In this document: one piece after another, positions 18,811 through 31,882 of the stretch
How positions within the stretch are numbered: the first letter of the stretch is position 1
Layout: every line of letters starts with the position of its first letter
NCBI GenBank assembly: GCA_902767845.1
Contig: CACXIV010000010.1
Span: forward strand, 22,239-86,238
Reading direction: 5' to 3'
Length of the DNA: 64,000 nucleotides
Origin: an uncultured Ruminococcus sp.
Lineage (GTDB): Bacteria; Bacillota; Clostridia; Oscillospirales; Acutalibacteraceae
The notes under the pieces: generated by a model
What the model saw: only the letters and a program-made list of their open reading frames with translations
Database searches by the model: none
Told to the model about the DNA's origin: nothing
Program-made: the position numbers and the translations under genes

Positions 18811-18838
18811 TTGACTTTGATCTTATTTTTATTATAAT
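18811..18838 (+). promoter_or_regulatory. Predicted promoter of the dlt-like operon
   Basis: TTGACT at 18811-18816 and a perfect TATAAT at 18833-18838 with 16-base spacing, about 50 bases before the first gene of the operon and after a terminator. Confidence 0.75.
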
Positions 18839-18888: not shown

Positions 18889-20394
18889 ATGGAAAAATCA
18901 GTTTTATGCAGACTAAATTCCGTATCGGAAAAATACCCCGGTAAGACCGCCTTCAGGGATACCGAAAACAGCCTGACCTTCGGCGAGTTCAACGAGCTGA
19001 CAAGGTCGGTGGGAACTTACCTTTCGGGCATAGTTTCGCCCGGAAGCCCCGTCGCGGTAATGTCCGGCAGACATGTCTACACCCCGGCGTGCTTCCTCGG
19101 AGCGGTAAGAGCCGGCTGCTTTTACGCGCCGATGGACGGCGATATGCCCGTTGCGAGGCTCAATCAGATATTGGGCGTTATAAAAGCCGGCGTGATGCTT
19201 GTCGACAGGGCTCATCTCGAGACCGCCGAAAGCCTTGATTTTGACGGAACGATCGTCGTGACGGAGGATATCATCAACACCCCTGCCGACGACGAACTGT
19301 TAAAAAGCAGGGAGGACGGCATTGTTTGCACCTCTCCGCTTTACGTCATCTTTACCTCAGGCTCAACGGGCGTCCCCAAGGGCGTCATCACCTCGCACCA
19401 GTCGCTCATGACCTACATAGATTCGGTCGGAAAGGTGCTCTCGATAGACGATACCGACGTTTTAGGCAACCAGTCTCCGCTCGATTATATCGCGGCTGTA
19501 CGCGACATTTACCTGCCGCTCAGCTTCGGAGCCTCGACCTTCATCATCCCTAAGAACGAGTTTGCCGTTCCCGCTCAGCTTTTCGACACCCTCAACCGCG
19601 AGAGGATCACCACCCTCTGCTGGAGCGTTGCCGGCGTTGAATTGCCTGCCAAGCTCGGCGCCTTTGACGTCAGCAAGCCCGAATACCTCAAAAAGCTCTG
19701 CTTCTCGGGCTCGGTAATGCCCTGCAAATATCTCAAGCTCTGGCAGGAGAACCTGCCCGACGTTTTGTATGTCAACCAGTACGGTCCCACCGAGGCGACT
19801 GCCTCGTGCACCTACTACGTCGTTGATGAAAAGGTCGACGACGACACCGTGCTGCCGATCGGCAAACCGTACGACAACTACCGCGTGTTCCTGCTTAACG
19901 AGGACAACACCCCCACCGAGCAGGGAAAAATCGGCGAGATCTGCGTCAGCGGACCCATCCTCGCCCTCGGCTACTACGGCAACGCGGAATATACGCAGAA
20001 GTCGTTTGTGCAAAATCCGCTCAATCCCAACTACCGCGAGCTCATCTATAAGACGGGCGACCTCGGAAGCATGGATCCCGACGGCACACTCAGGTTCCAC
20101 GGCAGAAAGGACAGGCAGATCAAGCACCTCGGCCACCGTATCGAGCTCGGAGAGATCGAGGAGGCGGCCAAGAAGATCGAAGGCGTGCTCGACTGCTGCT
20201 CGCTCTACAACAAGCCGAAGGAGCACCTTTACCTGTTTTACACCGGCAGCGCGACCTCAAAGGACATCGTTATCAGTTTCAGAAAGAACATGCCGGCGTT
20301 CATGGTTCCGCGCAAGCTAGTCAATCTCGACAAGCTGCCGACCCTGCCCAACGGCAAGATTGATATGCAGACATTAAAATCATATTTCAAATAA
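18889..20394 (+). CDS. DltA-like amino acid adenylation enzyme (carrier-protein ligase)
   Basis: A 501-residue stand-alone member of the adenylate-forming family, the size of DltA. Core motifs are FTSGSTGVPKGV near residues 154-165, NQYGPTEAT near 297, YKTGDLG near 388, and the C-terminal NGKID lysine motif near residue 492. DltA activates D-alanine with ATP and loads it onto the carrier protein DltC. Here the next gene encodes a small carrier protein, but a decarboxylase follows, so the amino acid may not be alanine. It is the first gene of a five-gene unit that also holds MBOAT and SGNH proteins. Substrate cannot be read by eye. Confidence 0.85.
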   Translation: MEKSVLCRLNSVSEKYPGKTAFRDTENSLTFGEFNELTRSVGTYLSGIVSPGSPVAVMSGRHVYTPACFLGAVRAGCFYAPMDGDMPVARLNQILGVIKAGVMLVDRAHLETAESLDFDGTIVVTEDIINTPADDELLKSREDGIVCTSPLYVIFTSGSTGVPKGVITSHQSLMTYIDSVGKVLSIDDTDVLGNQSPLDYIAAVRDIYLPLSFGASTFIIPKNEFAVPAQLFDTLNRERITTLCWSVAGVELPAKLGAFDVSKPEYLKKLCFSGSVMPCKYLKLWQENLPDVLYVNQYGPTEATASCTYYVVDEKVDDDTVLPIGKPYDNYRVFLLNEDNTPTEQGKIGEICVSGPILALGYYGNAEYTQKSFVQNPLNPNYRELIYKTGDLGSMDPDGTLRFHGRKDRQIKHLGHRIELGEIEEAAKKIEGVLDCCSLYNKPKEHLYLFYTGSATSKDIVISFRKNMPAFMVPRKLVNLDKLPTLPNGKIDMQTLKSYFK

Positions 20395-20417
20395 AGAATT
20401 AAAAAGGAGATATTATC

Positions 20418-20645
20418 ATGGATGAATTAATGGAAATCTTGGAAGAACTCAGACCCGACGTAGATTTTGAAAACGAGACAGCCCTCATCACCGACGGCGT
20501 TCTCGACTCCTTCGATATAGTCGCGCTCGTTGGCGAACTCAACGACGCGTTTGACATCGAGATCAAGCCCAACAACCTTGTGCCCGAGAACTTCAACTCG
20601 GCAAAGGCTATGTACGCTCTTATCGAGCAGCTTCAGGACGAATAA
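20418..20645 (+). CDS. DltC-like acyl/peptidyl carrier protein
   Basis: A 75-residue acidic four-helix carrier protein. The phosphopantetheine attachment serine lies in GVLDSFDIVAL (Ser31), matching the DSL/DSM pattern of DltC and ACPs with Phe in the third place. AAAGGAGA precedes the start. It stands 23 bases after the adenylation enzyme and one base before the decarboxylase, so it is presumably loaded by the first and serves the second as a tethered substrate. It is not next to fatty acid genes, which argues against a role as general ACP. Confidence 0.88.
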   Translation: MDELMEILEELRPDVDFENETALITDGVLDSFDIVALVGELNDAFDIEIKPNNLVPENFNSAKAMYALIEQLQDE

Positions 20646-20646
20646 T

Positions 20647-21834
20647 ATGAACGATCAAAAATTAAGGGAGCTCCTTTCGCGGGTGTCAACTCCCTCGTAC
20701 ATCTTTGACCTCGACCTGTTTAACGAGCGCGCCGGGCTTGTTCACGAGTATTTCGGCGACAAGGTCGGGATGTGCTTTTCGATAAAGGCAAACCCGTTTC
20801 TGCTCGGCAGGCTTCCCGAATGCTTCGACAAGATCGAGGTGTGCAGCCCCGGCGAGCTGACGATCTGCGAAAAGACCGGCGTAGATATGAAAAAGATCAT
20901 ATTCTCCGGCGTGAACAAGACGTTTGAGGACGTAGAGCGCGCCGCGGACGACGGAGTCGGCACCTTCACGGCGGAGAGCTTTCTCCACCTCGACCTTATC
21001 AACGACGCCGCGCTCAGGCGGAACACCGTTTTCCCGGTGCTGCTGCGCGTTACCGACGTAAAGGGCGGAAGCCAGTTCGGAATGGACGAGTCCGACGTGC
21101 TCGGTATCATCAAAAACCGCGCGGACTACAAGGGCGTCGATATCGTCGGCATCCACTATTTTACCGGCACTCAAAAGCGCAAGGCAAAGCCGGTCATCCG
21201 CGAGCTTGACTACATCGCCGACCTGATCAAAAGGATCGGGGAAGAGTATGATTTCACCGTTCGCCGCGTAGAGTACGGCACCGGTCTGGCGGTAGATTAC
21301 TTCGCCGACAACGCCGACGAGCTCGAGCGCGAGCGCCTTGCCGAGATCAGCGAAAAGCTCCGCGAGACCGCCGAGCTGTGCGAGCTGACAGTGGAGATGG
21401 GCAGGTTCTTTGCCGCTCCCTGCGGCTATTACCTGACAAGGGTGATGGACGTTAAGACCAATCAGGGAGTTAATTACGCTGTCGTTGACGGCGGAATGAA
21501 CCAGCTCAAGTACGACGGCCAGCTCCAGGGCATGCAGATCCCGAAAATAATTCACTTAAAGAATAATGACGTCACGGGCGACGTTCAGCCGTGGACTCTC
21601 TGCGGAAGTCTTTGCACCACAGCGGACGTTTTAACCCGCGCCGTTGAGCTCGACTCGCTCAAGATCGGCGACGTTCTGGTATTTTGCAGAACGGGAGCCT
21701 ATTCCTCAATGGAGGGCATGGCGGTATTTTTGAGCAGGGAAATGCCCGTTATCTCGGAGTATTCCGAGCGCGACGGACTGACCGTACTGCGCGAAAAGCT
21801 GTATACCGACGTCTTTAACACACCAAACAGATAA
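20647..21834 (+). CDS. Fold-type III PLP-dependent decarboxylase (LysA/ODC/BtrK-like)
   Basis: A 395-residue enzyme starting at ATG 20647, one base after the carrier protein stop. The PLP lysine sits in FSIKANP (residue about 42) at the start of an alanine-racemase-like barrel, and CGSLCTTADVL (residues about 318-328) supplies the cysteine and aspartate of the second active-site half, in the CTxxD form seen in decarboxylases that are not standard LysA. BtrK of butirosin synthesis, a relative, decarboxylates glutamate tethered to a carrier protein. Given the neighbouring ligase and carrier, a similar job is inferred here. A racemase or free amino acid decarboxylase is the alternative. Confidence 0.82.
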   Translation: MNDQKLRELLSRVSTPSYIFDLDLFNERAGLVHEYFGDKVGMCFSIKANPFLLGRLPECFDKIEVCSPGELTICEKTGVDMKKIIFSGVNKTFEDVERAADDGVGTFTAESFLHLDLINDAALRRNTVFPVLLRVTDVKGGSQFGMDESDVLGIIKNRADYKGVDIVGIHYFTGTQKRKAKPVIRELDYIADLIKRIGEEYDFTVRRVEYGTGLAVDYFADNADELERERLAEISEKLRETAELCELTVEMGRFFAAPCGYYLTRVMDVKTNQGVNYAVVDGGMNQLKYDGQLQGMQIPKIIHLKNNDVTGDVQPWTLCGSLCTTADVLTRAVELDSLKIGDVLVFCRTGAYSSMEGMAVFLSREMPVISEYSERDGLTVLREKLYTDVFNTPNR

Positions 21835-21852
21835 TGATATGGGGATGTAATC

Positions 21853-23475
21853 TTGACCTATACCTCAGTTAACTTTATATTTTTTGTACTGGTAACGGCG
21901 CTGCTCTACTTCGCCTTGCCTCTTAAAAAGCATAAATGGACGGTACTTCTCGCGGCGAGCGTGTTTTTCTATCTTGTCGCGGGCTACAGGTACGCCGTTT
22001 TCATACTGTTCACCGCGGTCAGCACATATCTGATCGGTCTTTGGGTGGACAAAATCTCCAAGAGCTCAAAGGCTGTCCTTAAAAAGAACAAGTCCGAATG
22101 GGGCAGGGAAGAAAAGAAGAAATACAAAAACAGTATCAAGGTGAAAAAGCGCCTTGTAATGAGCCTCGCGCTCGTGCTCAACTTCGGCATACTGGCGTTT
22201 TTAAAGTATTTCAACTTCTTTTCCGGCAGCCTTAACGACATTTTGGGCAACTTCGGCATCGACTTCTCGGCGCCGACACTGGCGCTGTTTTTACCGCTGG
22301 GTATCTCGTTCTACACCTTCCAGTCAATGGGATATATCGTAGACGTCTACCGCGAAAAGACCCCTGCCGAGAAAAATCCGCTCAAATTCATGCTGTTCGT
22401 ATCGTTCTTTCCGCAGATCGTGCAGGGACCCATCAGCATTTACGACCAGCTTGCCCATCAGCTTTACGAGCCTCACAGCTTTGACTTCACGCGCTTCAAG
22501 CACGGAATGATGCTTATCCTCTGGGGCTTCTTCAAAAAGCTGATTATCGCCGACCGCGCGGTGACAGCCATCACCGCCGTCACGGATGATTACAACGCCT
22601 ACGGCGGCTCCACGCTGCTGTTCACTATCCTGCTGTATTCCGTGCAGCTCTACGCCGATTTCTCGGGCGGTATCGACATCTCCCGAGGCGTAGCGCAGAT
22701 CTTCGGAATAGATATGATAGAGAATTTCAGGCGCCCGTATTTCTCAAGATCTATCAGCGAATACTGGCGCAGATGGCACATCTCGCTCGGAGCGTGGCTC
22801 AAGAATTACCTGTTCTACCCCGTGGCGATGTCAAATCTGTTCATTAACGCCGGCAAAAAGATGAAGGCTTCAAGGTTCGGCAAGACCGCCGCCGGAGCGC
22901 ATGTTTCAAAGGTGCTGCCCACCAGCGTAGCTTCTCTGATCGTGTTCCTCGTAGTAGGTATCTGGCACGGTGCCGACTGGAAGTACGTCGGCTTCGGCGT
23001 GTGGAACGGAGCCATCATCATGGTGAGCATACTGCTCCAGCCGCTGTTTGACTCTATCCTCAAAAAGCTGCATATCAATCCCAACGCGGTCTGGTACTCC
23101 GTGTTCCAAATGCTCCGCACGTTCATAATCGTGCTTGTCGGCTACGTGTTCGACGTAGCGCCCGGGTTCTCTCAGGCGATGCGCACATTCCGGCTGATAC
23201 TCACCAACCAGAGCCTTACCGCCGCGCGCGCCGAGATAAGCGAGCTCGGACTCGGCAAAAAGGACATGCTCGTTATCCTCGCAGGTATCGCAGTGATCTT
23301 CATCGTAAGCGTTATCCAGGAGCGCCACCCCTCGACAACGATCAGGGAAATGCTCGACCGCAAGCCGTTTTTACTCAGGTTCGCGGTGATCTTTATTGGT
23401 ATCATGGCGGTTATCGTATACGGCGTCTACGGCTCGGGCTACAATCCTGCCGACTTTGTATACATGCAGTTCTAA
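21853..23475 (+). CDS. MBOAT-family membrane O-acyltransferase (DltB/AlgI-like)
   Basis: A 540-residue membrane protein with 10-12 hydrophobic segments. It begins with TTG 21853, preceded by GGGGATG. Family signatures include FYTFQSMGYIVDVYR near residue 155, EYWRRWHISLGAWLKNYLFYP near residue 300, and GIWHGADW with the presumed catalytic histidine near residue 372. In the Dlt system DltB takes D-alanine from DltC and passes it across the membrane to teichoic acid; AlgI does the like with acetate. Here it would accept the aminoacyl group from the carrier protein made in the same operon. Confidence 0.92.
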   Translation: MTYTSVNFIFFVLVTALLYFALPLKKHKWTVLLAASVFFYLVAGYRYAVFILFTAVSTYLIGLWVDKISKSSKAVLKKNKSEWGREEKKKYKNSIKVKKRLVMSLALVLNFGILAFLKYFNFFSGSLNDILGNFGIDFSAPTLALFLPLGISFYTFQSMGYIVDVYREKTPAEKNPLKFMLFVSFFPQIVQGPISIYDQLAHQLYEPHSFDFTRFKHGMMLILWGFFKKLIIADRAVTAITAVTDDYNAYGGSTLLFTILLYSVQLYADFSGGIDISRGVAQIFGIDMIENFRRPYFSRSISEYWRRWHISLGAWLKNYLFYPVAMSNLFINAGKKMKASRFGKTAAGAHVSKVLPTSVASLIVFLVVGIWHGADWKYVGFGVWNGAIIMVSILLQPLFDSILKKLHINPNAVWYSVFQMLRTFIIVLVGYVFDVAPGFSQAMRTFRLILTNQSLTAARAEISELGLGKKDMLVILAGIAVIFIVSVIQERHPSTTIREMLDRKPFLLRFAVIFIGIMAVIVYGVYGSGYNPADFVYMQF

Positions 23476-23539
23476 ATACGAATTTTTGCCCGGATCGGCC
23501 GTAACTGCCGGGGCAAAAGCAGAGGCGATATAATAAACT

Positions 23540-24772
23540 ATGAAGAAAAAGCTATACATAACAAGGGCGATAAAGATATTCGCGCTGATCATGGCGGTTC
23601 TGGTGTGCTCGATGATGCTGCAGCATTATTTTCTGCTTCACTACGACGCCAACAAGATGAGGCTCGACGGATTCTATATTGAGGAAAAGGATTCCCTCGA
23701 CGTTGTCCTGGTCGGAGCCAGCGACTGCTATGCGGACTTCATTCCGGGCTTAGCGTATGAAAAGTACGGAATAACAAGCTATTCCTACGCCACCGCCTCG
23801 TGTACCGCCGGAGCCGCAAAGACAATGATAAAAGAGGTAATGCGAACTCAAAATCCGCAGAAGATTTTGATCGAGATCAATTCCTTCCTCTACGGCTTTG
23901 ACAACGAGAGCAGAACCTCAAGCGTGCGCAGTTATATCGACAACGTGCCGTATAATCAAAACAAAATCGAATATCTCGGGAGCGGAGCCATCCCCGCGAC
24001 CGAGGACGAGATCGAGTATTACATTCCGCTGATCAAATATCACGGCACATGGAACGACTATCCCGAGCCCTCGGGCAAGTATATCACCCAGATATTCAGG
24101 CAGCATACCGACGGCACCACAAAGCTAAAGGGCTACCGCACCTCGACCTCGATATGCGTTCCGGATCCCCAATATCCGTGTATCAACGATACTCTCGCTC
24201 AAAACGGCAAGACGCTCGCGCTGATGCCGGATTATGAAGAAAAGCTCCGCGACCTGATCGGCTTTATCAAGGACGAGGGATATGCCGACAAGGTTTTGTT
24301 TGTGCGCATGCCTCATCTCGTCAACGCTTCGTTCTACGCTCGTTTCAAGCGCGGAAACGCGGCAGGGGAGATAATAAAGAGCAGCGGCATGGAGTTTATC
24401 AACTTCGAGCGCGATCCCGAAACCCTCGCGTATTCGTACGGCGACTACTATAACGTCGATCACCTCAATGTATACGGCGCCGCCAAGTTTACCGACTACC
24501 TGTGCGGCATACTCACCCAAAAGTACGGAGTAACAAGCCGCGACCTGACTCAAAAGCAAAAACAGAGCTGGGACACCGCCGCGGAGTATTACCACAAGCT
24601 GCACGACTACTGCGACAGCTTTATTAAGAACGAGACCGCTAAAACCGGCTATGTTCAGACGATCGAGGAAAACTCCAACGTAATGAAGTATATCGACGAT
24701 TATGCCGAAACCGGCAAATTGCCCGAGAACAAGCCCGACCCCTCAGCCCCGACCGAGGAGCCGGAGATATAG
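23540..24772 (+). CDS. DltD/AlgJ-like SGNH-fold extracytoplasmic transferase
   Basis: A 410-residue protein with one N-terminal membrane anchor (residues about 11-30) and an extracellular SGNH-hydrolase-like domain. The nucleophile block VLVGASDCYADF places Ser at residue 61, and VDHLNVYGA (Asp307, His308) supplies the C-terminal Asp/His block. Such proteins partner MBOAT proteins: DltD with DltB, AlgJ/AlgX with AlgI. It should complete the transfer of the acyl group to the surface acceptor. The C-terminus is Pro/Glu-rich. It is the last gene before a strong terminator. Confidence 0.85.
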   Translation: MKKKLYITRAIKIFALIMAVLVCSMMLQHYFLLHYDANKMRLDGFYIEEKDSLDVVLVGASDCYADFIPGLAYEKYGITSYSYATASCTAGAAKTMIKEVMRTQNPQKILIEINSFLYGFDNESRTSSVRSYIDNVPYNQNKIEYLGSGAIPATEDEIEYYIPLIKYHGTWNDYPEPSGKYITQIFRQHTDGTTKLKGYRTSTSICVPDPQYPCINDTLAQNGKTLALMPDYEEKLRDLIGFIKDEGYADKVLFVRMPHLVNASFYARFKRGNAAGEIIKSSGMEFINFERDPETLAYSYGDYYNVDHLNVYGAAKFTDYLCGILTQKYGVTSRDLTQKQKQSWDTAAEYYHKLHDYCDSFIKNETAKTGYVQTIEENSNVMKYIDDYAETGKLPENKPDPSAPTEEPEI

Positions 24773-24792: not shown

Positions 24793-24830
24793 CAAAGACT
24801 TCTCCATAGCGGAGAGGTCTTTTTTGTTTT
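24793..24830 (+). terminator. Intrinsic terminator of the dlt-like operon
   Basis: AAAGACTTCTCC pairs with GGAGAGGTCTTT around ATAGC, followed by TTTTTGTTTT. Confidence 0.88.
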
Positions 24831-25015: not shown

Positions 25016-25327
25016 AACTAAATGTGGGTTGTTATACCCTTTTTCAGCCGATATCATTGGCATATATAGTTTTTGCGCAAAAATTTACGCGTGATCGGGC
25101 TGTGATATCACTGAGGGTCAGGCAGTAAAAGCTGAACGTCCGAGACGAAGTTATTGTATAGTCGTTAGTCGTGAGCCGTTAGAAACGGTAATCCAACTGA
25201 CGGCTGACGACTGACGACTGACGGCACACCGGCAAAGGGAAAGTAAACCGCATTTTTTTACACAAACTTTTCAACGGCAATTAACTGTTAACCGTTAATT
25301 GTTAATTTGAAAAAAGGAGGAAAAAAT
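25016..25327 (+). promoter_or_regulatory. Long structured 5' leader, class unknown
   Basis: The 534-base gap between the dlt-like operon and the giant gene holds no credible gene. After the promoter it contains a small GGGT/ACCC hairpin followed by TTTTT (about 25026-25045), a segment with two GATATC-containing arms (25049-25110), and a large imperfect inverted repeat: GTCGTTAGTCGTGAGCCGTTAG (about 25160-25182, given here in two blocks GTCGTTAGTCG and TGAGCCGTTAG) facing CTGACGGCTGACGACTGACG (about 25196-25215). A TTAAC-rich near-palindrome lies at 25279-25307, just before AAGGAGG. It matches no riboswitch class I recognise. Confidence 0.5.
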
Positions 25328-28300
25328 ATGAAAACACAAATAAAGCGGCTTTCAAAATCTACCCTCGCGGTTCTTTTGTCGGTTTGCTTGCTCATTTCAT
25401 GCATGACCGTCGGCATTATCGCCACAGACGCGGCGAAAACTACAGAAGAGCGTGTCGGTGCTGTTGATAACAGCGAGAGCGTGGGGGCGTCAACCTATTA
25501 TTATCGCGGCGGCTTGAATTCTTGGGGATTGACCGCTATGACTCAGATTTCCGACACCAACCTATGGTATTATCAGGCTTCGGGTTCCAGTGCTTTTAAA
25601 ATATGCGATACTACTGATTGGTCTGGAAACAACTATGGGTATAGTTCCAGCAATGTAGTTGATGGTGAGTTATCGTTATCAGATGCCGGAGGAAATGATC
25701 ATAATATTAATGACGAAACCACTTCATCTCATTATATAGTATTCGATTCCTCAAATGTGAAAATTTGGGCTCAAACGACTAACCCGACAACAACAAAAAC
25801 CTTTTATGTATGTAACAGTGACAGTTGGTCGAGTGTGTATGCACACGTTTATTCAGGAGTTTTGTCTAAGTCTAATTGGCCGGGCGAACAATGCACGGAC
25901 AGCAATAAAATCGGCACGATAAACGGTAATCCGGTTTATAGCTTTACTGTTTCGTCGTATTACACTCGAATTATGTTGAATAATAATAATAATATTCAAT
26001 ATAATCCCAGCGCTGTGTTAGAGGATGGTGCACTGTATTATACACGCGGCAGTACAGGTGATGGAGCACCTTGTAAGTCAACATACAATTCTTCTAGTCT
26101 AGACAAATGGCAATTGGGATACAATGACGGTTCGGAGCATTATGTAGATTTTTCCAGCAATTCTGCTACGCTGAGCTTTTCTGCCAACACAACCTATTCT
26201 TATTGGATAAAGTACGGCGATACTTATTACAAAAACAACGGTACAATGACTCGTGCAGACTGCACGAATTGGACATTTACCGAAGACGCGAGTAACGCAC
26301 ATATCACCGCTGATGTAGCTGGTACTTATGTATTTAACTTGGATACATCAAGTGGAGTAAAGGTCAGCGTTACTTATCCTGCTTTGACTCAAAAGACCGT
26401 CACCTTTGGCGTGGACAGCGGCACCTCGTCGAACGGCGGCGCTTTAACAGCTGAAATCGGCGGTACTCCTATCACAAGCGGTCAGTCATATGATCATGGC
26501 TCATCCGTAACCTTTACTGCCACGCCTAATTCGGGTTACAAGACCAAATGGTACAGCGACTCGGCTTGCACAACCGAGATCAACGGCGCTTCGGGCAACA
26601 CCTACACCGCGAGCTTGACTGATAACATGACCGTTTACGTCAAATATGTGGCACAAACCTTCATCACTATCTATGTGTGTGATAATCAGCCGCTTACCCA
26701 AACAGCCAATCACCTTTGCTTCTACACCTTCCACGGCAATACACAGGGCGGAACAGGTGCTTGGCCGGGAAAAAAGGTTGCTACTGCTCAGGATTCAACC
26801 TACAGGGTAACAACTGTCGGCACCATCGACAGCAAAACTGTTTATAAGCTGGAGCTCGATACCGACAATTACGGAAACGATACGGGCATTATCATTGACG
26901 CAGATGGAAATCAGACCGGTGACCTCACCCTTTCCGACGGCGCGATCTACTTTACAAAGACCGAAAACAATATTGCGGGCTCTCAGGATATCTTTGATCA
27001 GTCCATGCTTGACAACAGCAATGTAAAGAGTTACGTTATCGCCGGTACAAAGAGCTTGGTTGGCTCCGATCCGTGGAGTACAACCGCTCACCGCATGAAG
27101 TATAACTCTAACGGTACGTACACAATTACCTTTAACAACGTAGCGGCTGCTCCCGAATACGGCACCCTCGCGTTTAAGGTTATTGAATACAATACCAATT
27201 GGGTCGCGGCAGATAATACAAACAGCGCGGATAATGTTAACATTGAAAACAACGTTGTTCAGAAAAAGATCGACAGTGAAGGAAACATCGCGTTTACAAC
27301 CGGCAAAAAATCAAATATCACGATCACATACGATCCTAATGCTGCTACAAATAGCTTTGTGACGATCTCAGCGGCGGATATTCCCTCTACCACTCTGACA
27401 ACGACCATTTATGTAAATAAAAATAATGTAAACGGCTTGTATGTATGGACTGATACCGATGCAGAGCCTTTGGGCACATGGAATGCAACAGAAACAAATG
27501 TAAGCAGCGTCCAGACGACCGAAACACTCGATGGTTATAGCGGAAGCGCATTTGTAAAGCATACCTTTGAAAGCTCTGATTCAACCTTTAAATACATTGT
27601 TAGAAAAGGTTCGAGTCAATCCAGCGATTCATCTTCATATCCTATCGGCGGCACTTATGTCATTGATACTCTTACCAATGTTCCCGATATCCTCGGCGGC
27701 GGCGGCGGCGGAAACGATACCGACTCAAAATGGGATCCTATATTTGTTGACGGGAATAAGGTGCCGGCTAAAGACAGAAATAAATTCCTGCTAAGGAGTA
27801 ATAACCAGGAACCCACAGCAGCCAACTTTACTTCAACCGGTCTTGACGCGTATACTTCCGACGGCAAGATCTACTTCAAGATCCCCTATGCCACAATAAG
27901 CTCATACAAATATTTTATGCTTGCAGGCACAGATGGCGATTACACCAGCGACTGGTATCAGATCACAAACAGCTCGGGTAATTCCATTACCAATGTATTT
28001 GTTGACAACAGCGCTTCCGACTATCTGTCCGCGACAAAGAAGGAGTATTACGGTCAGGAAGACGGACATAGAGATACAAACTACTTCTATTCACAGGTCA
28101 CTATTCAGGAAGGCGCTGAGAATACGTTTAAATATGTCGTTCTGGAGATCGACCCGGCGCAGAGCAAGCGTACCTTTACCTACTACACCTACGGCGCGAC
28201 GCCTATTGCAAAGAAGCCAAAGATCGTTGTTGAGAACGGCTCATACGGTTATCAGTCCAAGTATGGTACTGCGACAGTTACAACACCCGCAGGTTTGACA

Positions 28301-31300
28301 GGAACCAACGGCGATTGGTGGACGACTTACCGTGTGGAAGAAGGCACACAGCTTTATGTCACTACAACCATCAAAGCAGAGTGCAGAGGAGATAGCTCAA
28401 CCACCGGTATGTATGTATACGCTTACGCGGTCAACGGCGTTAAGTACGAGGTTGAATCAAACAACGGATATACATTTGTAAACACCAAGCCCATCACTGT
28501 AGGCACAGAGGATATCGAGATCACTCCTGTTTACTACAGCCGCTCGATCGAAAACGCAAATGATTACATTTCGGTCTATGTTGAGGCTGACAGCGATCTG
28601 ATTGATCACTGGGGTGACCAGATCTACGTTTATTCATATTACTACGGTGCCGATCCCAACAGCGGAACAACTGAGCATGAGGGCAGAATGGACGGTAACT
28701 ATCCCGGTCAGACTCTTGTTCTCGATGGTTCCGGTTACTACTACGGTAAAATCGCAAAGTGCTTCTACTCCGGAGAGTATCTGCAAACCAAGGACGCGGC
28801 ACATCCCGTTTCAGGCGTAACCTTCAGCGGAGGCTACGAAAACAACGCTCCGCATCATAACTTTATTGATTATGCGCAGAACCGTCAGACCTACGACTAT
28901 GATGACTTTAAGTACATCGCTAACTTAGGCTATGACACCGTTCGTCTGGATCTGAAGTATGAGCCTCAGACCTCTGACTCCAACCAGCATATGCTCATAA
29001 ACAACGCTACAGACCAACCTTCAACCGATAAGACACCCGCTTCAGTTGACGTTTCTAAGGTTCAGGGCTGGCAATACCTGTACGATTACGACTATAATCC
29101 GTGCAGTGTGCTCGGTCTCAGCGGAAAGGTCGCAAGAGATTTCGGCGAAACATTCCACTACGCTGACGACGGAGCCTATGGTTACAGCGGCAACCAGAAT
29201 GTTAAGATCATTTCAGTCGGCAACCAGCATGTTGAGAACAAGGGTGATTGGGCGACTTATTGGTACGTATATAAGAATACCGGTACAGAGGAATCTCCGG
29301 AATGGACCTTTGTTACCAAGGGTCTTCCCTCAGACTTCATCTGCCGCACCGATCCAAACGGCACCCCCTATAGATTTGATGACTTGACTGAAGGTCACCA
29401 GACAAATCAGTGGAGAGCTGTTTACAATGCAGGAATAGCGTTTACTGCTGCGTCTATCGCTTATGAAGCCGAAATGGGCGCCGAAACCTCGGTCTCTACC
29501 AAAAATACGGGTCACCGTATTGACGCAAGATGGCTTTATACAACTTCACAGAGCCGTTATGAGGTTCACGCCGGTGTAGCGATTTATGATGCTTCAACAG
29601 GAAGCTACACACTTGACACCAACAACTTCGGCGCCGCCTCTCCCACAGGTACTGCAAAGGCGTCCGCCTATATCGACAATTCAACAAACCATAACAGAAA
29701 CGACAACGTTTCATCCAAGAAATTCGATAAACGTAACGTTGACGCCTACCTCACTACAAATTCACCAAGCAGCGATTACTATTTTGCTTATTGGGCGGTA
29801 GTAAAGGGCAGCCAGCCTGATGATGCTAACTTGAGTTCCGGCGGCAACATGCTCTTATCGGATGTTGAAAGACTTGCCGGCGGCGAGGATACGACTCACA
29901 AGATCTTGGCGAATACCAACCAGTTCTTCGTAGCTGTTTACAAGCCTATTACAGGCGGCAAGCTCATCCTTAAGCACGACGCCTATACGGGCGGAGGCCT
30001 TACCGGCACAGGTAACCGCTATATTCAGGCGGATATTGTCCAGTCGGACGGTACAACGGTTGTTTCTTCATTCAAAAAGAGCAAGGATCAGATTACCGTT
30101 ACCGGTATTACTAACCAGATGTCCGACAGAGGATATCTCCTTAGAATCAAGCTTTATACCGCTTCGCTTGATTCATCTGTCTTTAATAAATTCTGGTTGC
30201 CGGGAAGTAATGCTGTAGTATCCACCAATCCTACGTATAGTCAAGCGGCTTCGGCAAACTCAAAGGATGGCAAGGTATGCACCGAGGATGATCCCGCGGC
30301 TTACACCGTAACCGTAGCGGTCAGTGATATTTATTCTGCCATTACTGCTTCCGAGGCTCAAAATGCTAATGTAAATGATTATACCATTAATTACAAATCT
30401 GCCCTCGATACAGGATATAAGTATGAAATCAAATATACTTATAACAGCCGTTTTTGGAATTCCCAGACTTACACCGTAAAGGGTACCTTTACTACAGAGG
30501 AATTTAATACTTATGTGACCGATGACGCGGGAACATTATCATTTAACTCGGCTCTTAAGGAAGATTTCCTTGCTGTTCATTCTCCTTACGAGGATAACTT
30601 TAAGGAAACTGTTAAGTGGAAATTCTCTCTTGCCAACAACCTTGTTTATAATTCCACAACAAAGACATTTACCACTTCAGTCGCTTCAGATGAGCAGTCC
30701 GACAGAACTATTAATATCAAGTTCATATTCCCGTTTGCTTACAATGACAGTACACAGACTGCCGAAGGCTCAGGAAGGATCGGAGAAACAGTATCAGGAC
30801 ATATTGTCGGACTTGTTCCCACAAAGGATCAAAACGAAGGCAATAGGATCATGAAGATCGATACTGAAAATAATATTGACTTTACAGATACACTTCAGTA
30901 TCTTGACTGGTATTCTCTCAATGCTTGCAAGAATTCGCATGATCAGGAAGACGAACAAAAGCCTGACGAGCCGTTCCTTCTTGAAACTCCCGGAAAGATC
31001 TACACAAAGGATGTTGTTGCTCAGGGTGCAGAGCAGACATATACTGAGTATACTTTCCAGTACTGGTCGCTTAAGACTTATCCTACGGACGATTCAGTTT
31101 CTGCTGTTGAGTATAAGAGATGCTACTCAAGGCACTTTAACCTCGGACTCTATCAGTCAACAATAGCTGAGCCTATTTATAAGGTCGTAACGGCACAGGA
31201 TCCTCAGGTAACGCCGTCAGGCGGCGAGTCCGCAACGATCAACTTCCTTGAGAACTCACGTAACCAGTGGAATTACGGTGGCGGCGGTGACGTCGGAACT

Positions 31301-31882
31301 AAAGTAAAAGCTTCATGGATGAATCGCGGCGACAGAATATTCTCTGACTTTGTAATTTCGTTTGAGTATAACGGAAAGCTGCTCAAAGCTCAGGATGATA
31401 ATAATTATAAAGCCGGAGTAGTTCTTGAGTCGGTCGGCACTCTCCAATCCGACGCTTACGGCGACGTCACAATAAAGACTCCCGAGGAGTATAAGACTCA
31501 ATATGAACCTGACGCTAATGCAACCGAAGCAGCTAAAACAGCCGCGGTTACAGAAATCAAGAAATTAACTAACGCGCAGCTTCAAAATTCTGAGGTTAAT
31601 AAAACCGGAACCGATTACAGCTATCTCTTTGCCGGAGTCAGCAATATTGCTAACCTCGACAATAAGAACTCGATCGAGTTTGCTTACAGCTTTGCGAATA
31701 TCAGCCACACCACCGGATCCTCTGATGATCCTACACCTACTTTACGTAAGAATAAGATTTACAGAGCATTCTCATATGTGTATGATAGAGATTTTGATAA
31801 GGTTGTTATAAGTGATCCGATCTACTTCACGATTTATGATATCGCTTCTATCCAGTCAGGCGATGCTTATACAGCGTCGTAA
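25328..31882 (+). CDS. Giant secreted multi-domain protein with starch-binding-like modules
   Basis: A 2184-residue protein starting at ATG 25328, with AAGGAGG nine bases upstream, and a clear signal peptide (residues 1-36 or so). It is a chain of beta-sandwich modules. The region at residues 55-115 starts YYYRGGLNSWG; residues about 157-240 and 443-545 each show the WPG pattern of CBM25/26-like starch-binding modules (NWPGEQ, AWPGKK); residues about 353-445 look like an InlB/Flg_new-type repeat; residues about 560-660 resemble the X25 module of pullulanases; residues about 690-775 are again CBM-like; then a GGGGGG linker. No catalytic domain, dockerin or sortase motif is evident. It probably binds glucans or serves as a large adhesin. 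The gene is AT-richer than its surroundings. Confidence 0.75.
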   Translation: MKTQIKRLSKSTLAVLLSVCLLISCMTVGIIATDAAKTTEERVGAVDNSESVGASTYYYRGGLNSWGLTAMTQISDTNLWYYQASGSSAFKICDTTDWSGNNYGYSSSNVVDGELSLSDAGGNDHNINDETTSSHYIVFDSSNVKIWAQTTNPTTTKTFYVCNSDSWSSVYAHVYSGVLSKSNWPGEQCTDSNKIGTINGNPVYSFTVSSYYTRIMLNNNNNIQYNPSAVLEDGALYYTRGSTGDGAPCKSTYNSSSLDKWQLGYNDGSEHYVDFSSNSATLSFSANTTYSYWIKYGDTYYKNNGTMTRADCTNWTFTEDASNAHITADVAGTYVFNLDTSSGVKVSVTYPALTQKTVTFGVDSGTSSNGGALTAEIGGTPITSGQSYDHGSSVTFTATPNSGYKTKWYSDSACTTEINGASGNTYTASLTDNMTVYVKYVAQTFITIYVCDNQPLTQTANHLCFYTFHGNTQGGTGAWPGKKVATAQDSTYRVTTVGTIDSKTVYKLELDTDNYGNDTGIIIDADGNQTGDLTLSDGAIYFTKTENNIAGSQDIFDQSMLDNSNVKSYVIAGTKSLVGSDPWSTTAHRMKYNSNGTYTITFNNVAAAPEYGTLAFKVIEYNTNWVAADNTNSADNVNIENNVVQKKIDSEGNIAFTTGKKSNITITYDPNAATNSFVTISAADIPSTTLTTTIYVNKNNVNGLYVWTDTDAEPLGTWNATETNVSSVQTTETLDGYSGSAFVKHTFESSDSTFKYIVRKGSSQSSDSSSYPIGGTYVIDTLTNVPDILGGGGGGNDTDSKWDPIFVDGNKVPAKDRNKFLLRSNNQEPTAANFTSTGLDAYTSDGKIYFKIPYATISSYKYFMLAGTDGDYTSDWYQITNSSGNSITNVFVDNSASDYLSATKKEYYGQEDGHRDTNYFYSQVTIQEGAENTFKYVVLEIDPAQSKRTFTYYTYGATPIAKKPKIVVENGSYGYQSKYGTATVTTPAGLTGTNGDWWTTYRVEEGTQLYVTTTIKAECRGDSSTTGMYVYAYAVNGVKYEVESNNGYTFVNTKPITVGTEDIEITPVYYSRSIENANDYISVYVEADSDLIDHWGDQIYVYSYYYGADPNSGTTEHEGRMDGNYPGQTLVLDGSGYYYGKIAKCFYSGEYLQTKDAAHPVSGVTFSGGYENNAPHHNFIDYAQNRQTYDYDDFKYIANLGYDTVRLDLKYEPQTSDSNQHMLINNATDQPSTDKTPASVDVSKVQGWQYLYDYDYNPCSVLGLSGKVARDFGETFHYADDGAYGYSGNQNVKIISVGNQHVENKGDWATYWYVYKNTGTEESPEWTFVTKGLPSDFICRTDPNGTPYRFDDLTEGHQTNQWRAVYNAGIAFTAASIAYEAEMGAETSVSTKNTGHRIDARWLYTTSQSRYEVHAGVAIYDASTGSYTLDTNNFGAASPTGTAKASAYIDNSTNHNRNDNVSSKKFDKRNVDAYLTTNSPSSDYYFAYWAVVKGSQPDDANLSSGGNMLLSDVERLAGGEDTTHKILANTNQFFVAVYKPITGGKLILKHDAYTGGGLTGTGNRYIQADIVQSDGTTVVSSFKKSKDQITVTGITNQMSDRGYLLRIKLYTASLDSSVFNKFWLPGSNAVVSTNPTYSQAASANSKDGKVCTEDDPAAYTVTVAVSDIYSAITASEAQNANVNDYTINYKSALDTGYKYEIKYTYNSRFWNSQTYTVKGTFTTEEFNTYVTDDAGTLSFNSALKEDFLAVHSPYEDNFKETVKWKFSLANNLVYNSTTKTFTTSVASDEQSDRTINIKFIFPFAYNDSTQTAEGSGRIGETVSGHIVGLVPTKDQNEGNRIMKIDTENNIDFTDTLQYLDWYSLNACKNSHDQEDEQKPDEPFLLETPGKIYTKDVVAQGAEQTYTEYTFQYWSLKTYPTDDSVSAVEYKRCYSRHFNLGLYQSTIAEPIYKVVTAQDPQVTPSGGESATINFLENSRNQWNYGGGGDVGTKVKASWMNRGDRIFSDFVISFEYNGKLLKAQDDNNYKAGVVLESVGTLQSDAYGDVTIKTPEEYKTQYEPDANATEAAKTAAVTEIKKLTNAQLQNSEVNKTGTDYSYLFAGVSNIANLDNKNSIEFAYSFANISHTTGSSDDPTPTLRKNKIYRAFSYVYDRDFDKVVISDPIYFTIYDIASIQSGDAYTAS

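Follow-up and report, generated by a model that had tools for sequence, protein, structure and literature searches.

A dlt-like operon of an uncultured Ruminococcus sp. that includes a decarboxylase gene and may decorate the cell surface with an omega-amino acyl group

We analyzed a 64,000-nucleotide stretch (hereafter, the window) of contig CACXIV010000010.1, which is contig 10 in the 1.70 Mb, 86.85% complete draft genome of an uncultured Ruminococcus sp. (GCA_902767845.1). Five open reading frames were confirmed on the plus strand at 18889-24772. They encode an adenylating enzyme (A), a carrier protein (C), a pyridoxal phosphate (PLP) decarboxylase (DC), a membrane-bound O-acyltransferase (MBOAT; B), and an SGNH-like protein (D; Table 1), so that the gene content, families and strand are those that an earlier, sequence-only reading of this DNA had described. 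We think it probable that the operon encodes a line in which an acidic amino acid, glutamate ahead of aspartate, is decarboxylated while tethered to its carrier and is then fed to a surface acyltransferase for export. What the analysis shows is the genes, their families and conservation, the altered pocket of A, the placement of DC, and the shuttle motif of B.

The route would begin with A, which, judging by its pocket and by the enzyme families involved, would use the side-chain carboxyl to activate the acidic amino acid and load it onto C. The substrate would most likely be L-glutamate (via the gamma-carboxyl), and next L-aspartate (via the beta-carboxyl). From its family placement and adjacency, DC would then remove the free alpha-carboxyl on the carrier, yielding 4-aminobutyryl-C or beta-alanyl-C. 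If the published MBOAT/SGNH mechanism applies, B would move the group from C to the tyrosine of its own FVYMQF motif, and the serine of D may take the group and esterify a surface polymer, which would gain a primary amine. Substrate, step order, product and acceptor are what we infer here. We also lean, if only slightly, towards a broader view, in which such operons form a clostridial class of surface aminoacylation, whereby a wall or capsular polymer receives an omega-amino acyl group (gamma-aminobutyrate [GABA] or beta-alanyl) in ester linkage. The group would be made on a carrier by decarboxylation of a side-chain-loaded acidic amino acid, and the MBOAT machine that transfers it would be of a third kind, with a Dlt-like carrier feed and a shuttle fused as in acetyltransferases, and the loader-carrier-decarboxylase set would be portable to hexapeptide and AT3 acyltransferases. 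We found no published example of a dlt-like operon with a decarboxylase in the open-licence literature, covered mostly at the level of titles and abstracts.

The adenylating enzyme, its carrier and the decarboxylase

Enzyme A passes the amino-acid adenylation model TIGR01733 (318.9 bits; cut-off, 317.4) and fails the DltA model TIGR01734 (240.2 bits; cut-off, 559.85). Its predicted structure (predicted local distance difference test [pLDDT] score, 90.4) is best matched by PheA (1amu), with the first DltA structures at ranks 11 and 14. Pocket positions are given in what we take to be PheA numbering, and we presume the accepted meaning of positions 235, 239, 301 and the others. In the window they are Asp199 at 233, Ile201 at 235, Arg205 at 239, and Ser at 301, as against D235, M239 and C301 in DltA; the alignment with solved DltA has no gaps (QAPFSFDLSVMDIY against QSPLDYIAAVRDIY). 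The sequence-only reading had suggested comparing the two pockets, and they do differ, at Ile201 and Arg205. The basic residue at 239 suits, as far as a pocket code can indicate, a substrate bearing a second carboxylate, and the loss of Asp235 suits an activated carboxyl without a neighbouring amino group; both would fit glutamate loaded via its gamma-carboxyl. Lys239 is part of a non-ribosomal peptide synthetase code for Glu, and Lys278 is part of one for Asp. The pocket, as aligned, argues against D-alanine as the loaded residue. Asp199 may act as a helix cap for the helix starting at residue 200 of the model. The idea that VinN has its key Asp at 233, as in the window, was rejected, given Ser233 and Asp235 in the VinN-like enzyme of locus L143.

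We compared 88 A enzymes from decarboxylase loci, namely those of the window, 12 same-family loci, and 75 of 80 loci from a wider scan described below (L048 and L072 have no A, and L083, L103 and L105 scored <200 bits). Position 239 is Arg or Lys in all 87 that were readable there, and position 235, readable in 86, is Ile in 71 and Asp in 15. In ten same-family operons a stand-alone A adjoins C or B, the stretch examined contains no DC, and the genome has no DC match at E<=1e-40; none of the ten has Arg or Lys at 239, and all ten have Ser at 235. That comparison drew on 24 of 30 loci (ten with the decarboxylase, ten without, and four kept apart: L109, L110, L119, L120), after removal of six A domains whose reading frames were >=700 aa long (L113, L117, L118, L134, L135, L136). 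The DC-less, Dlt-like operons L111, L112, L114, L115, L121, L122 and L125-L128 combine Ser235 with Asp330, and the substrate that their A enzymes load directly may be a hydroxy acid or an omega-amino acid. At L179 (G003), as at L119, a Lys239 pocket is found together with a GNAT-type gene standing where the decarboxylase would be.

The carrier is matched by PF00550 (21.8 bits; cut-off, 20.8) and scores 33.4 bits against a cut-off of 68 with the DltC model NF003464. It has the size of DltC and a DS motif (75 aa, LDSF), and the motif pattern recurs in 75 of 78 carriers. DC matches PF02784 (72.0 bits; cut-off, 23.4) and PF00278 (58.8 bits; cut-off, 23); its best NCBIfam model is TIGR03099 (182 bits; cut-off, 478.45), and it scores 179 bits on the LysA model (cut-off, 297.9). 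Lys47, the PLP lysine by homology, is invariant. The best solved relative is BtrK, which decarboxylates glutamyl-BtrI to gamma-aminobutyryl-BtrI (PMC7857480; here and below, cited papers are drawn on for the part available to us). Like the carrier-acting enzymes BtrK and VinO, DC has a carrier and a loader adjacent to it.

A tree of 51 rows places 27 operon DCs in a single clade (100/100), with 16 LysA sequences beyond a 100/99 branch; BtrK and VinO themselves are not among the rows, and one wrong-frame row was left out. The operon side also takes in one Geobacillus row and several plasmid rows that have carrier or adenylating genes in their neighbourhood (VinO-like, Paracoccus, Streptomyces, Agrobacterium, Rhizobium). 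Operon DCs carry the signatures QFG and CT/CS, as do the plasmid rows (PFG in Paracoccus), whereas LysA has KFG/KYG and CES/CEN; the window's DC has LCT and EG..VFLSR where LysA has CES/CEN and NYN. A separate LysA-like gene, with CEN and NYN present, lies on contig 3 of the same genome (262.2 bits; cut-off, 297.9). Because of the tree placement, the signatures and this separate gene, a housekeeping LysA role for DC appears unlikely, and we rejected LysA as its identity, since it scores under the cut-off, lies across the 100/99 branch and has none of the signatures. Alanine racemase was likewise rejected: the only domains of DC are PF02784 and PF00278, PF01168 had no match in it, and the three PF01168 matches in the genome are on other contigs. 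The sequence-only reading had named action solely on free diaminopimelate or ornithine, and plain alanine racemase activity, as outcomes that would overturn it; by family DC is neither LysA nor an alanine racemase. Family placement and the basic pocket residue lead us to favour action on the loaded carrier over action on the free acid.

Conservation, export and the acceptor

DC was matched at E<=1e-40 in 13 of 150 same-family genomes, own genome counted. B lies near DC in 12 of these 13 loci, the remaining locus ending at the contig end, and C is present in 11 (L016 is cut). The gene set is still kept together at only 34-49% identity to the window's DC. There are two gene orders: type I, A-C-DC-B (the window, L005, L006), and type II, A-DC-C-B. 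A scan of named genomes gave at least 565 DC relatives, of which we retained the best 80; these are the nearest to the query, and the counts thus lean to the window's type. Counting neighbours on the same strand within 5.5 kb, centre to centre, we found C in 79 of the 80 loci, B in 68, and both B and D in 61. A is missing from two, one at a contig start (L048) and the other an orphan DC without its N-terminus (L072). The 80 include records named Ruminococcus albus, Pseudobutyrivibrio, Mogibacterium, Eubacterium and Hungatella. The association of A and DC is not chance, because the two adjoin in 13/13 and 78/80 loci.

In a wider draw DC is rare, matching 4/398 genomes across the phylum at E<=1e-70 with its own genome counted, and a LysA search of 12 other same-genus genomes gave a second, DC-like match in only six (170-193 bits; candidates), so that DC is no fixed part of the genus. 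Two MBOAT-SGNH pairs lie close to a single A-C-DC set at L075 and at L080. Decay of the decarboxylase may be seen in the orphan DC (L072:7055-8074) and at L168, where a DC-like match in the same genus contains an in-frame TGA.

B matches PF03062 (56.2 bits; cut-off, 27) and scores 139.6 bits on the DltB model TIGR04091 (cut-off, 375). Its C-terminus, FVYMQF, fits the motif FxYxxF, which is present in all 65 full-length MBOATs of loci L029-L108 (seven cut ones uncounted); type II MBOATs end in PxYxxF in the 4/4 operons read. PMC12148441 describes FxYxxF as the acyl-shuttle motif: Dlt carries it on the separate peptide DltX, whereas in other pairs, said to use acyl-CoA and to have no carrier, it is part of the MBOAT. 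On the sequence evidence, a fused shuttle beside a carrier gene is a hybrid arrangement. This shuttle and the spread of the operon go beyond what the sequence-only reading had noticed.

Searches of D against Pfam and NCBIfam found nothing at E<=0.001. For its predicted structure (pLDDT, 88.6) the top Foldseek match was DltD (7dxm), a weak one at E 3.5e-4 and a TM of about 0.3, and SGNH enzymes such as TesA were matched as well. The motifs GASD (Ser61) and DYYNVDH (His308) are present, and Ser61 and His308 are invariant in 24 aligned rows.

B is the single MBOAT gene of its genome. The lipoteichoic acid that had been named among possible acceptors found no support, and an acceptor of the LtaS type appears unlikely, because PF00884 has no match in the genome, which is weak evidence at 86.85% completeness. 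A polyol-phosphate wall polymer is a candidate acceptor: contig 15 (L182:239-4460) carries a cluster of a ribitol-5-phosphate cytidylyltransferase (185.9 bits, cut-off 166; 177 on the IspD model, cut-off 181.3), a Zn-dehydrogenase, an epimerase, and a TarL-like protein (315 bits; cut-off, 1000).

Alternative substrates, reaction orders and acceptors

Several observations weigh against the route that we propose. Types II and III retain Asp235, the loss of which is thus no rule for decarboxylase-linked A enzymes. L119 has the Lys239 code and no DC, with a 279-aa GNAT-type gene at its place, which means that the pocket code needs no decarboxylation. The VinN-like A carries its Arg at another pocket position (330, not 239), and in a tree of A enzymes the decarboxylase-linked types were not firmly grouped (48/90), leaving a single origin unsupported. 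The VinO-like rows are nearest to the operon DC clade with only 88/84 and a long-branch warning; L013 reads A-DC-B, with no carrier found between DC and B; and the likeness of D to DltD is weak. It is also possible that DC decarboxylates free Glu before loading. This would amount to a swapped order: DC would convert free Glu or Asp to GABA or beta-alanine, which A would then load, giving the same surface decoration. The loss of Asp235 would also fit a substrate without an alpha-amino group, and a decarboxylated acid retains one loadable carboxyl. However, the basic residue at 239 (87/87) would then meet no second carboxylate, the DC-less sister operons do not have it, DC groups with carrier-acting enzymes, and VinN accepts 3-methylaspartate and, as far as the available part of the paper describes, not the decarboxylated acid (PMC11284099). 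We consider a swapped order unlikely.

The tethered route itself has a sub-case with Asp as the substrate: its beta-carboxyl would be used for loading, and decarboxylation would leave beta-alanyl-carrier. VinN/VinO, with 3-methylaspartate, and FlvN, with Asp, point this way. VinN-VinL-VinO, plus FlvN for Asp, is the studied adenylating precedent (PMC11284099); L143 and L149 pair an adenylating enzyme and a PLP enzyme with a methylaspartate mutase by a polyketide synthase, and Asp235, kept in types II and III, is also kept in the VinN-like L143. The window's A, however, is without Asp235 and has its Arg at 239 instead of the VinN-like 330, and BtrK works on a glutamyl-carrier (PMC7857480). We regard aspartate as a possible, if less probable, substrate; the 4-aminobutyryl group from glutamate put forward in the sequence-only reading is, tentatively, still our first choice. 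A diamino dicarboxylic acid such as diaminopimelate, loaded at one end and decarboxylated at the other to give a lysyl-type decoration, is very unlikely: BtrK-type enzymes do share ancestry with diaminopimelate decarboxylase (PMC7857480), but Ile235 speaks against an alpha-amino group by the activated carboxyl, and DC has not retained the LysA signatures. Quite unlikely, too, is a plain D-alanylation operon with a LysA- or ornithine-decarboxylase-like DC standing outside the loading chemistry. The LysA model scores DC about equally with TIGR03099, and half of the other same-genus genomes searched have no second, DC-like match; yet the alpha-amino Asp and pocket Cys of DltA are gone, DC is separated from LysA in tree and signatures, the genome has its own LysA-like gene, and A and DC remain together across loci. 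As for the acceptor, a secreted lipid, peptide or protein in place of a wall or capsular polymer seems rather unlikely. The operon itself encodes no acceptor and the next large downstream gene encodes a 2191-aa protein, but the described MBOAT/SGNH pairs act on envelope polymers (PMC12148441) and related sets elsewhere sit in polysaccharide clusters.

Related systems and features of the locus

With Dlt (DltA-DltC-DltX-DltB-DltD) the window shares an adenylating enzyme, a small carrier, an MBOAT and a protein whose best, though weak, fold match is DltD, all in one operon. In contrast to Dlt, its proteins score far under the DltA, DltC and DltB cut-offs, Asp235 and Cys301 of DltA are replaced, a decarboxylase is added, and the MBOAT itself bears the shuttle motif. 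A DltX gene would not fit between the five genes, which are separated by only 1 to 64 bases (the genome elsewhere was not searched). A plain D-alanylation system was set aside as quite unlikely on the DltA and DltB scores and the pocket. PatA/PatB-type MBOAT-SGNH pairs share FxYxxF at the MBOAT C-terminus, but use acyl-CoA and are described as carrier-less in the part of PMC12148441 available, whereas the window has carrier and loader genes.

Butirosin synthesis shares the fold-type III PLP decarboxylase, BtrK acting on the glutamyl-carrier (PMC7857480); its product, however, is an antibiotic side chain, and BtrJ is classed as an ATP-grasp enzyme (PMC4431377). BtrJ, which the sequence-only reading had proposed as a comparator for adenylation, was accordingly rejected as a pocket yardstick; the closer precedent is VinN-VinL-VinO of vicenistatin, with FlvN, which shares an adenylating enzyme, a stand-alone carrier, and a PLP decarboxylase acting on a loaded acidic amino acid (PMC11284099). 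It differs in its pocket code, as read on the VinN-like L143, and in feeding a polyketide synthase. The exosortase A-associated pair TIGR03098/TIGR03099 belongs to the same two enzyme superfamilies, and one of its models is the best for DC, but this identity was rejected, with both cut-offs missed (A, 177.2 vs 592.35; DC, as given above).

Sets of A, carrier and DC also lie near a hexapeptide acyltransferase (L095, L099 and L144 of Paracoccus), and at L092 such a set stands with two AT3 proteins by a polysaccharide flippase in a polysaccharide cluster. Varied acyltransferase neighbours are expected if the sets make an activated acyl group. In the Paracoccus polysaccharide cluster (L144:5634-9215), the hexapeptide acyltransferase, A, carrier and PLP decarboxylase genes follow GDP-sugar and aminotransferase genes; on the exosortase A models its ligase reaches 504.6 and its decarboxylase 370.7, both below the cut-offs, and its A has a VinN-like pocket code. 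Plasmid clusters of Rhizobium gallicum (L147:5914-9861) and Streptomyces sp. S501 (L150:5938-10329) combine a fold-type III PLP enzyme, an adenylating enzyme, a carrier and an ectoine synthase, and possibly carry out carrier-bound synthesis of an ectoine-like product.

D-alanylation is the textbook Gram-positive route to positive wall charge. If our proposal is true, a set of clostridia, whose record titles in many cases point to rumen and gut, uses another charged group, which is racemase-free and places the amine at a greater distance; an omega-amino acid ester may also be more stable than an alpha-amino acid ester. The operon occurs in named species such as Ruminococcus albus (L086, L088), which makes the proposal concretely testable. 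The proposal would also bridge two kinds of MBOAT that PMC12148441 keeps apart, one fed by a carrier and working with a separate DltX, the other fed by acyl-CoA and bearing the shuttle itself. Profiles, the DC tree and synteny agree with the central idea of the sequence-only reading, that Dlt-like parts are joined here to what appears to be a decarboxylase of the carrier-acting type.

Table 1. Features of the operon in the window
Feature	Position	Strand	Basis
Sigma-70-like promoter, TTGACT-16-TATAAT	18811..18838	+	11/12 consensus positions; consensus match only
A, predicted stand-alone amino-acid adenylating enzyme, 501 aa	18889..20394	+	Profile, pocket alignment, predicted model
C, phosphopantetheine carrier protein, 75 aa, LDSF motif	20418..20645	+	Open reading frame, profile
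DC, fold-type III PLP decarboxylase, 395 aa, probably of carrier-acting type	20647..21834	+	Profile, tree, signatures QFG/LCT
B, MBOAT acyltransferase, 540 aa, GIWHGA histidine motif	21853..23475	+	Profile; TTG start as listed
FVYMQF (FxYxxF acyl-shuttle) codons, C-terminus of B	23455..23472	+	Sequence; motif definition from PMC12148441 (part available)
D, SGNH/DltD-like protein, 410 aa, one N-terminal hydrophobic stretch	23540..24772	+	Motifs, predicted model
Intrinsic-terminator-like hairpin with T run	24794..24822	+	Consensus match only

The ATG of DC begins one base past the stop codon of the carrier gene. One promoter and one terminator had been claimed for the operon, and matching sites do flank it (Table 1), although both come from consensus scans only, in which 14 promoter-like sites were observed vs 6.1 in shuffles, and eight terminator-like sites vs 8.6. 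Downstream of the operon, the next large gene (25307-31882), which encodes the 2191-aa protein, gave only weak CBM26 and InlB-repeat matches.

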